Notes under the pieces: model-generated
Seen by the model: the letters and a program-made list of their open reading frames with translations, nothing else
What the model was told of the DNA's origin: nothing
Database searches by the model: none
In this document: piece by piece, positions 22,852 through 36,443 of the stretch
Layout: the number at the start of each line of letters is the position of its first letter
How positions within the stretch are numbered: position 1 is the stretch's first letter
Assembly (NCBI GenBank): GCA_003140075.1
Contig: PLIO01000272.1
Coordinates: 1 to 36,443 of the forward strand
Length of the DNA: 36,443 nt
Origin: Acidobacteriaceae bacterium
GTDB taxonomy: Bacteria > Acidobacteriota > Terriglobia > Terriglobales > Acidobacteriaceae
Reading direction: 5' to 3'
Program-made: the position numbers and the translations under genes

Positions 22852-22887
22852 TCATCCCGAGCTAGCGCACTTTCCGCAGCGAGGATC
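22852..22887 (+). repeat. Copy 1 of TCATCCCGA-type palindromic repeat, inside the EPS gene run
   Basis: TCATCCCGA (22852-22860) is followed by a stem-loop: GCT, a bulged A, GCG, loop CACTTTC, CGC AGC. GAGGATC (22881-22887) comes next. The two ends match the repeats at 34811-34859, 35254-35300 (inverted) and 35349-35392. It lies between the Wzz-type and ATPase genes. Confidence 0.5.
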
Positions 22888-34810: not shown

Positions 34811-34859
34811 TCATCCCGAAGGCCCGCGTTTTCCACCAGCGGGCCGAAGGATCTCCCTC
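34811..34859 (+). repeat. Copy 2 of TCATCCCGA-type palindromic repeat, upstream of the GIY-YIG gene
   Basis: TCATCCCGAA is followed by a perfect stem GGCCCGC (34821-34827) / GCGGGCC (34839-34845) with loop GTTTTCCACCA, then GAAGGATCTCCCTC. The inverted copy at 35254-35300 has the same loop sequence and a stem that differs by a compensatory pair. Confidence 0.75.
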
Positions 34860-34920
34860 AAATCGGCTCTATGTTCATTCGTCACAGAAAGCGTCAACCC
34901 TACTGCGCTAAACAAGAACG

Positions 34921-35331
34921 ATGCGCCCTCCCAAACAATTCTTCGTCTACATCATGACCAACGGACCGAAGTCCGCCGTCCTTTACACAGGCATCACAGG
35001 CAAACTCCCTTACCGGGTCTGGCAGCATAAGAACAAACTTGCTCCCGGATTTACCAGCCGATACAACCTCACCCAACTCGTTTACTACGAGCGTTTCTTC
35101 TATCCAGATGCCGCCATCGCACGCGAAAAGGAAATAAAGGGCTGGCGGCGGAGTAAGAAGATAAAGATCATCGAATCGATGAATCCGCAATGGGATGATT
35201 TGGCGAAGGACTGGGGCAACGAGTACAAGCTTGACCCCGCAGCAGCAGAGCGAGGGGATATCCCTCGCCCCGCTGGAGAAAACGCGGGGCTTCGGGATGA
35301 GGTCACCGAAACGGAACTGAAATTTGATTGA
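34921..35331 (+). CDS. Small GIY-YIG nuclease-family protein with a repeat-derived C-terminal tail
   Basis: 136 residues. Residues 8-90 match the GIY-YIG domain of the small UPF0213/YhbQ-like group: FFVYIMTNGPKSAVLYTGIT (the GIY and YIG motifs appear as VYI and YTG), then PYRVWQHKNKL, LVYYERF, AREKEIKGWRRSKKIKIIESMNPQWDDL. The Arg (R in PYRVWQH) and Glu (E in REKEIKGW) positions used for catalysis are present. The last 33 or so residues (from LDPAAAERGD onward) are not part of the fold; they are encoded by an inverted copy of the TCATCCCGA repeat. The gene therefore lies between two oppositely oriented copies (34811-34859 and 35254-35300). The role of these single-domain proteins is not known; DNA repair or mobility are both proposed for GIY-YIG enzymes in general. 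Confidence 0.8.
   Translation: MRPPKQFFVYIMTNGPKSAVLYTGITGKLPYRVWQHKNKLAPGFTSRYNLTQLVYYERFFYPDAAIAREKEIKGWRRSKKIKIIESMNPQWDDLAKDWGNEYKLDPAAAERGDIPRPAGENAGLRDEVTETELKFD
35254..35300 (-). repeat. Copy 3 (inverted) of TCATCCCGA-type repeat, inside the GIY-YIG coding sequence
   Basis: Read on the minus strand it starts TCATCCCGAAG, has stem GCCCCGC/GCGGGGC (35284-35290 with 35267-35273 on the plus strand) and loop GTTTTCTCCA, and ends GAGGGATATCCC. It aligns with the copy at 34811 over its full length. It is translated as the tail of the GIY-YIG protein. Confidence 0.75.
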
Positions 35332-35348
35332 ACGGAAAGTATGCTGCG

Positions 35349-35392
35349 TCATCCCGAGCGCAGCCGTTCTTCAGGCGGAGCGAAGGATCTCC
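35349..35392 (+). repeat. Copy 4 of TCATCCCGA-type repeat, diverged
   Basis: TCATCCCGA (35349-35357) and GAAGGATCTCC (35382-35392) match the ends of the other copies. The middle is an imperfect stem, CGC-A-GCC with GGC-GGA-GCG. It lies 17 bases after the GIY-YIG stop. Confidence 0.6.
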
Positions 35393-35904: not shown

Positions 35905-36443
35905 ATGGCTACTTCATACGACGTAATCGTAATCGGCGGCGGCCACAACGGCCTGGTCAACGCCGCCTACCTGGCCCGCGCCGAAAAGAAAGTTCTGGTT
36001 CTCGAACGCCGCCACATTCTCGGCGGCGCGGCCTGCACCGAAGAAGTCTTTCCCGGCTTCAAATTTTCCGTGTGCTCGTACGTAGTCTCGCTGCTGCGCC
36101 CGGAAATCATCCGCGACCTCGACCTTCCGCGCCACGGCCTCGAAATCCTCCCGCTCGATGGCACCTTCACTCCCATGCCCAGCGGCGATTACCTCTGGCG
36201 CGTGAACGACCATGGTAAGACTCACCGCGAAATCGCCCGCCACTCCCGCGTCGACGCCGAGGCCTACGACGAATTCGGCAAAGCCATGCAGGCCATGTGT
36301 CGCTTCGTGAAACCGATTCTCAGCATGGTGCCGCCCGACCCCAACACGCTCAATCCCCGCGAACTGATGAAGCTCCTTTTCATCGGTCGCCGCTTCCAGG
36401 GCATGTCGAGCTACGACAAGTACAACCAGGTCCAGCTCATGAC
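35905..36443 (+). CDS. FAD-dependent oxidoreductase, phytoene-dehydrogenase/PYROXD2-like (3' truncated by window end)
   Basis: The first 179 residues or so of a longer protein (relatives run to about 500-550). The N-terminus SYDVIVIGGGHNGLVNAAYLARAEKKVLVLERR is a Rossmann dinucleotide fold with GxGxxG-like GGGHNG and the acidic Glu at the end of the second strand that binds the FAD ribose. It is followed by ILGGAACTEEVFPGFKFSVCSYVVSLLRPEII, typical of the phytoene-desaturase-like group that includes PYROXD2. No carotenoid genes are beside it, so a role in carotenoid synthesis is not implied. The ATG at 35905 follows AAGAG at short distance. The C-terminal half is outside the window. Confidence 0.85.
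   Translation, partial: MATSYDVIVIGGGHNGLVNAAYLARAEKKVLVLERRHILGGAACTEEVFPGFKFSVCSYVVSLLRPEIIRDLDLPRHGLEILPLDGTFTPMPSGDYLWRVNDHGKTHREIARHSRVDAEAYDEFGKAMQAMCRFVKPILSMVPPDPNTLNPRELMKLLFIGRRFQGMSSYDKYNQVQLM

Follow-up and report, generated by a model that had tools for sequence, protein, structure and literature searches.

The window (the whole stretch of 36,443 nucleotides that was analysed) carries near its right end a gene for a small, single-domain GIY-YIG nuclease, which lies between two hairpin repeats in opposite orientation and is followed by a third (Table 1). The open reading frame matches PF01541 with 43.4 bits, and no NCBIfam family matches the protein at an E value of 0.001. The motif residues VYI, YxG, R, H, E and N are conserved across 14 aligned proteins; the catalytic role of the GIY-YIG motif residues is established for the superfamily. 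Among the matches listed from species genomes, the closest protein (75% identical) belongs to Acidobacteriaceae bacterium bog_174, and the best relatives among solved structures are the distant UPF0213 proteins 1zg2 and 1ywl. PADLOC returned no defence-system match for three proteins, and a defence system was rejected as the identity of the locus on this ground.

Table 1. Features of the window that bear on the GIY-YIG locus.
Feature	Position	Strand	Remarks
Degenerate repeat copy	22852..22887	+	Distant from the gene; weak fold
Left neighbour ORF, 398 aa	33550..34746	-	Anchor for the orthologous site
Upstream flanking repeat, type A	34811..34853	+	Foot TCATCC..GGATC
Single-domain GIY-YIG nuclease, 136 aa	34921..35331	+	Pfam domain about 34939-35163
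Downstream flanking repeat, type A, inverted	35259..35300	-	Translated as GDIPRPAGENAGLRDE near the protein C-terminus
Third repeat, type B	35349..35389	+	CGTC tag
Right neighbour ORF	35905..36441	+	Continues past the window end; anchor for the orthologous site

All four repeat positions reported by the earlier note, three at the gene and a degenerate one at a distance, were recovered, and copies 1 (+) and 2 (-) indeed flank the PF01541 frame as an inverted pair. The difference between their stems (GGCCCGC/GCGGGCC versus GCCCCGC/GCGGGGC) is real. All four are copies of one hairpin repeat, the third having a stem of another type. Type A matches nine other places in the own genome, outside the window, and type B matches 18. 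A repeat motif that was composed after the copies had been seen has four matches in the window, compared with a mean of 0.12 and a maximum of 2 in 200 random windows matched in dinucleotide composition. As single-stranded DNA, copies 1 and 2 fold better than shuffled sequences (z of -2.4 and -3.1), while copies 3 and 4 fold no better than shuffles (z of +0.3 and -0.7).

The inverted copy had also been said to supply the C-terminal tail of the protein. It is translated here, but the tail varies among loci: the stop codon lies past the start of the downstream inverted motif repeat in 17 of 40 family loci having such a repeat, and the congener G082 translates the inverted copy in another frame. 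Because the tail is present at only 17 of the 40 loci and its frames differ, a conserved function for it was rejected.

Hairpin repeats beside small GIY-YIG genes

The own genome contains seven PF01541 matches. Five are small frames that pass the cut-off, one lies within a 662-residue frame, which is taken to be uvrC, and one is weak. Hairpins of one design are located within about 250 bases of all five small genes and on both sides of four of them, with L009 having repeats on one side only. These hairpins are of the TCATCC[CT]GA...GGA[CT]C type and occur in both orientations. Their stems vary from locus to locus, and different enzymes of the one genome adjoin different repeats. The repeats of the C95 and C254 cassettes are also dispersed in the own genome. 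Many of the places matched in the C95 search represent a further short repeat of about 28 bases, which lies between the C95 GIY-YIG gene and its hairpin (L012, about 1320-1350) and is identical or nearly so at many places. At L003, L004 and L005 some repeats are part of a larger element that has inverted ends (e.g. GGTCAGTTTGAATTT...AAATTCAAACTGACC), and part of the dispersal may be passenger transport by such an element.

PF01541 is present in 116 of 120 genomes of the same family. The family motif was set on 29 further loci (L016-L044), and 40 other loci were then drawn from the PF01541 matches listed, small open frames only; rows near the left end of a contig, G054:C42 and lower-ranked rows were excluded. 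A motif repeat lies within 500 bases at 29 of these 40 loci and on both sides at 24, in opposite orientation at 21 of the 24. When variants missed by the motif are counted, as scored by eye, the number rises to 38 of 40: of the 11 motif-negative loci, eight have repeat variants to both sides of the gene, one has them on a single side, and the remaining two sit at tRNA genes. The repeat density is 3.15 per kb at 0-250 bases from the gene, 0.65 at 250-500 bases and 0.16-0.23 farther out. The enrichment near GIY-YIG genes that the earlier note had proposed to look for thus exists, at about 16-fold within 250 bases relative to the region beyond 500 bases.

None of 20 GIY-YIG frames as large as uvrC has a motif repeat closer than 500 bases. 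Since the 3' side of uvrC is coding, the distance profile and the ORF controls are the better comparisons. In a motif-free test, an inverted word of at least 12 bases is shared between the flanks of 30 of 36 loci (those having a callable ORF and sufficient flank) and of 6 of 210 control ORFs. Y1 transposases occur in 50 of 60 family genomes; a repeat lies within 500 bases of 1 of 30 RAYT-like Y1_Tnp loci and on both sides of none, and a RAYT was rejected as the partner of the repeats on these counts. Away from the genes, in the distal parts of 60 regions, the dispersed repeats are mostly single (30 singles and 4 pairs).

Some small GIY-YIG genes, which form a side branch, are arranged differently. 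At L050, L054 (6001-6210) and L040 (1501-1710) the gene directly adjoins a tRNA gene (tRNA-Val twice and tRNA-Met), and a 30-33 base direct copy of the tRNA 3' end lies at its far side, as if the gene were inserted in the T-arm; no hairpin repeats were seen at these three loci. L034 adjoins tRNA-Arg and L029 adjoins tmRNA, with no clear copy at either.

The same arrangement extends to other phyla. A tblastn search of a plasmid collection gave 36 records, 14 of which were examined. An inverted word of at least 10 bases is shared between the flanks at 11 of the 14, namely those from Novosphingobium aromaticivorans, Azospirillum lipoferum 4B, Sinorhizobium meliloti, Neisseria gonorrhoeae, Aeromonas caviae, Spirosoma, Rhizobium CIAT894, Shinella, Sphingobium, Methylobacterium and Sphingomonas. 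The longest inverted word at the N. gonorrhoeae locus is not the hairpin, which gives a 13-base word. The N. gonorrhoeae GIY-YIG protein is 44% identical to the window protein, both have VYI, YxG, R, H, E and N, and its gene is located among CGTCATTCCCGCG..GGGAATCC repeats. Photobacterium and Rhizobium tumorigenes have no shared inverted word of that length and carry a CGTC- or CCTC-like repeat about 200 bases downstream. The Planktothrix locus is without a shared inverted word of at least 10 bases, yet such repeats are found all around it. On this Planktothrix plasmid (L109, 5998-6282) the repeat-surrounded gene sits within a DISARM cluster, with an MmeI-type gene on one side and drmA on the other.

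A scan of species genomes yielded at least 80 loci, 77 of them testable. Inverted words of at least 12 bases are shared between the flanks at 43 of the 77 (2 of 154 control ORFs) and direct words of at least 16 bases at 34 (4 of 154). Neither an inverted nor a direct word above 10 bases was detected at ten loci (L150, L163, L186, L187, L188, L199, L213, L214, L222 and L228), four of which are from Clostridia. In 54 of the 80 scanned loci, the head [TC]GTCAYYY occurs within 250 bases at 51, with a density of 9.75 per kb at 0-150 bases and 0.35-0.61 beyond 600 bases. The commonest arrangement across many phyla is a repeat with its tag outward, the gene and an inverted repeat. The earlier note had pointed to homologues that normally lack flanking repeats as evidence against its idea; this was not the outcome in the own genome, the 40 family loci or the 77 cross-phyla loci.

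The hairpin foot and its correspondence with the enzyme

An alignment of 34 acidobacterial repeats, from which L077 and seven short repeats (24-28 bases) that aligned poorly were left out, reveals a foot of four pairs, followed by a tandem GA/GA mismatch, one further pair and a top that varies. Standard pairing is seen in 97.1% of the cells of the five foot pairs, versus 85.4% after shuffling and 15-68% in slid registers, a percentage that is biased toward the structure because the structure was drawn on the same alignment. Of the 170 foot cells, 22 are changed on both sides, none is changed on one side and five are unpaired: the foot is maintained through compensatory changes, whereas the top varies. 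Cells with a two-sided change number 7.1 on average after shuffling, and 22 was equalled in none of 500 shuffles. Three foot pairs show a two-sided change, which was equalled in 44 of 500 shuffles, and the number of pair types in the foot is not above that of shuffles.

The two copies at one locus resemble each other. Among the 53 loci with a two-sided motif repeat, out of 74 examined, both copies share the C:G or T:A pair at 52 (shuffled mean 27.4) and are concordant in the next varying pair at 44 (31.7 when shuffled). In the tail, 5.5 of 8 letters agree between the two copies of a locus, compared with 2.65 when shuffled. Some loci are in contig orientation, and the concordance counts are independent of locus orientation.

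The type of foot also follows the enzyme. On a tree of 85 enzymes, which is built on few columns and has many open forks, the C:G/T:A pair type, labelled in 58 rows, requires 8 changes, versus a mean of 18.2 and a minimum of 13 in 500 shuffles; L078, with a stop in the domain, is absent from the trees, and L020 and L040 were left out of this test. The second varying pair shows no tree signal (7 changes, shuffled mean 8.7), and a third feature follows the tree weakly (5 changes, mean 8.5, minimum 5). The overall correlation between enzyme and repeat in a Mantel test is small (Pearson 0.20, the largest of 2000 permutations being 0.18; Spearman 0.11). Because the foot is kept while the top is free, and because the foot type tracks the enzyme, it is most likely the folded foot of the hairpin that the enzyme recognises.

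Presence and absence at fixed sites and copy number

The window site between the same two neighbours was retrieved from 14 of 18 congeners searched; G127 ends at a contig border, and 13 were compared, with site states here and at a second site scored by eye. The unit is present in G082, G130 and G120, its gene being apparently frame-shifted in G082 and bearing an internal duplication in G120. In G122 (L133) the GIY-YIG gene is inverted and its frame is apparently broken, as recombination between the inverted repeats and subsequent decay would give. G128 has a repeat pair without a gene, G121 and G124 have a single repeat, G006 and G132 have neither gene nor repeat, and G125, G126, G123 and G134 contain other or degenerate content. 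At the second site, which lacks a GIY-YIG gene, one genome did not align and 17 are readable: a type B repeat is present in eight (the own genome included), type A in one, a degenerate repeat in one and none in seven.

The unit of A. lipoferum 4B occupies a 617-base spacer between sufB and sufC, where the spacers of three relatives measure 91, 87 and 129 bases, and its gene is flanked by two repeat pairs. All 11 other Azospirillum records listed match in two pieces, without the unit. Neither a target-site duplication nor an exact insertion junction was resolved at the window site, the second site or the A. lipoferum site.

Repeats were counted in the 120 family genomes with a covariance model, up to about 46 among the matches listed per genome, and were found in 114. 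The number of small genes, taken as PF01541 matches minus one, correlates with the number of repeats (Spearman 0.58, n = 120, kinship ignored). The median number of repeats among the matches listed is 12.5 in the 50 genomes without a small GIY-YIG gene and 43 in the 27 with three or more. In 27 genera having two genomes that differ in gene number (the own genus, with three genomes, was excluded), the comparison is concordant in 18, opposite in 7 and tied in 2 (p = 0.043). The earlier note had held that a link would be refuted if genomes lacking the gene had just as many repeats. On average this is not the case, but the coupling is not strict, because 5 of the 50 gene-less genomes have at least 40 repeats; four of the 70 genomes with a small gene have at most five.

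A probable cognate nuclease of CGTC-type repeats

The flanking hairpins are, judged by their sequences, relatives of the CGTC-tagged REPs. The passages on this class in a 2013 survey state that such REPs 'apparently lack a dedicated transposase', and include among them Neisseria dRS3 and Rickettsia RPE-4 and RPE-6 (PMC3733652). Both groups are multicopy hairpins with a (T/C)GTC tag beside a stem starting with AT (compared with the class description in PMC3733652). The tag begins 33 of the 34 acidobacterial repeats, as TGTC in 29 and CGTC in 4, and the last is AGTC; the search motif had fixed the last two tag letters and left the first two free. The tags of the window copies are AGTC, CCTC and CGTC. 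The 8-9 bp stem starting with AT that marks the class is not found in the acidobacterial repeats, which keep AT on the 5' side and have the 4-pair foot instead, under a longer and variable top. The CCA tail is absent as well, the acidobacterial tails being locus-specific (e.g. CTGCAGTT), and ATCCA is seen at the Sinorhizobium, Rhizobium, Shinella, Azospirillum and Aeromonas loci. Azospirillum lipoferum and Novosphingobium aromaticivorans, in which a GIY-YIG gene lies between inverted repeats, are listed in the survey as CGTC-REP hosts (PMC3733652).

The main text of the 2013 survey does not contain the word GIY (PMC3733652); in their available text, a survey of the superfamily (PMC1564403) has no word beginning with palindrom-, and PMC6006769, which cites the 2013 survey, contains no GIY-YIG. 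The dRS3 repeats are described, in the section concerned, as sites of recombination and phage insertion (PMC10745880). In the open literature searched, GIY-YIG occurs in no paper alongside 'repetitive extragenic palindromic', alongside dRS3 or alongside palindromic elements of Rickettsia; 'site-specific single-stranded nuclease' is a phrase absent there, and among the matches listed from the broader literature none joins GIY-YIG enzymes with such repeats. Ssn, a Neisseria GIY-YIG single-strand nuclease described by Chenal, Veyrier and colleagues (Nature Communications 2025), is reportedly paired with a dispersed repeat that numbers hundreds of copies, is said to have homologues in the thousands and to cleave single-stranded DNA sequence-specifically, and reportedly modulates natural transformation in Neisseria. 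The N. gonorrhoeae protein described above is presumably Ssn. To our knowledge, neither the spreading of repeats nor a link to the CGTC class is part of that work. The window system resembles Ssn in the combination of a single-domain GIY-YIG enzyme with a dispersed repeat, but differs in the host phylum and in the architecture of the acidobacterial repeat (4-pair foot, tandem GA/GA, variable top). The suggestion of the earlier note that the system might be undescribed is accordingly doubtful for the enzyme-repeat pairing: if Ssn is as reported, the pairing as such is already known, and what is new here is the generality of the repeat-gene-repeat unit, the CGTC-class link, the covariation and the site polymorphism.

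Folded-foot recognition is likely and the RAYT-like genes are without these repeats, and the small GIY-YIG enzymes are therefore strong candidates, on sequence evidence, for the cognate nucleases of the hairpins that flank them. By analogy with RAYTs, they likely also spread these repeats. The full explanation, a cognate single-domain GIY-YIG nuclease of CGTC-REP-related hairpins whose cutting, followed by repair, would spread them, is in our judgement somewhat probable. The enzyme would bind the repeat folded in single-stranded DNA, such as that of the lagging strand, and would cut at the hairpin foot. With less certainty, cutting and repair may disperse the repeats and at times the entire unit too; the solo repeats would then be non-autonomous, like the REPs of RAYT systems, whose nuclease is chemically unrelated. 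The likeness to REP-RAYT systems and REPINs consists in a small nuclease gene between inverted copies of a dispersed palindrome and in repeat types that are paired with the enzyme. Between the repeats, however, a GIY-YIG gene replaces the Y1/HUH transposase gene of the GTAG REPs, and the tag differs (as the GTAG class is described in PMC3733652); up to nine PF01541 matches, uvrC included, occur per family genome. The RAYT-like role that had been proposed for the enzyme is supported in part. We put forward more tentatively, as a possibility somewhat short of probable, the broad form of this reading, in which single-domain GIY-YIG nucleases are the mobilising enzymes of CGTC-type REPs across Bacteria (dRS3, RPE-type and acidobacterial hairpins), the repeat-gene-repeat unit is autonomous, the solo repeats are its non-autonomous progeny, and the system is convergent with REP-RAYT and has no HUH chemistry.

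The competing explanation that survives best, although we consider it unlikely, is a cognate nuclease without a spreading role, which would act on incoming or exposed single-stranded DNA, in transformation or hairpin removal, while the repeats spread otherwise. All the pairing evidence fits it equally well, and the reported effect of Ssn on natural transformation in Neisseria is in its favour. The inverted arrangement at 21 of the 24 two-sided loci and the presence or absence of the unit and the repeats at fixed sites, in contrast, are expected of a mobile pair, and a housekeeping role would not predict enzyme-specific repeats within one genome. It is improbable that the gene is a selfish gene of homing type that inserted beside or between pre-existing repeats, which would be mere landing sites. 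The gene-less repeat pair of G128 where others carry the gene, the position of the A. lipoferum gene between two repeat pairs, and a weak resemblance of four of five relatives to a group I intron endonuclease profile, below the curated cut-off, would suit such a gene; the match between the two flanks of a locus (52 of 53) and the tracking of enzyme clade by repeat type would not.

Mobilisation by another enzyme, either RAYT-like or of a transposon with longer inverted ends, with the repeats as passengers beside GIY-YIG genes, is very improbable. Y1 transposases are widespread in the family and some own-genome copies do belong to a larger element bounded by inverted ends, but repeats accompany 1 of 30 Y1 loci, never on both sides, against 29 and 24 of the 40 GIY-YIG loci. 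Chance proximity of common intergenic repeats to an unrelated small gene, which the earlier note had called the simpler reading and which the abundance of the repeats (114 of 120 genomes) might suggest, is excluded by the roughly 16-fold distance enrichment and the motif-free controls (30 of 36 and 43 of 77 loci).

The reading of the small GIY-YIG enzymes as cognate nucleases of their flanking hairpins has several consequences. The 2013 survey, in its treatment of the CGTC-tagged palindromes, left open which enzyme makes them (PMC3733652), and one candidate family, found in many phyla, can now be named. Specificity can be read from sequence, in that every enzyme gene adjoins its own repeat, which provides a large natural set of enzymes and targets, and whether the enzymes are cognate is open to a simple cleavage assay. 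If the enzymes do spread the repeats, populations of REP type would have arisen at least twice, with unrelated nucleases.
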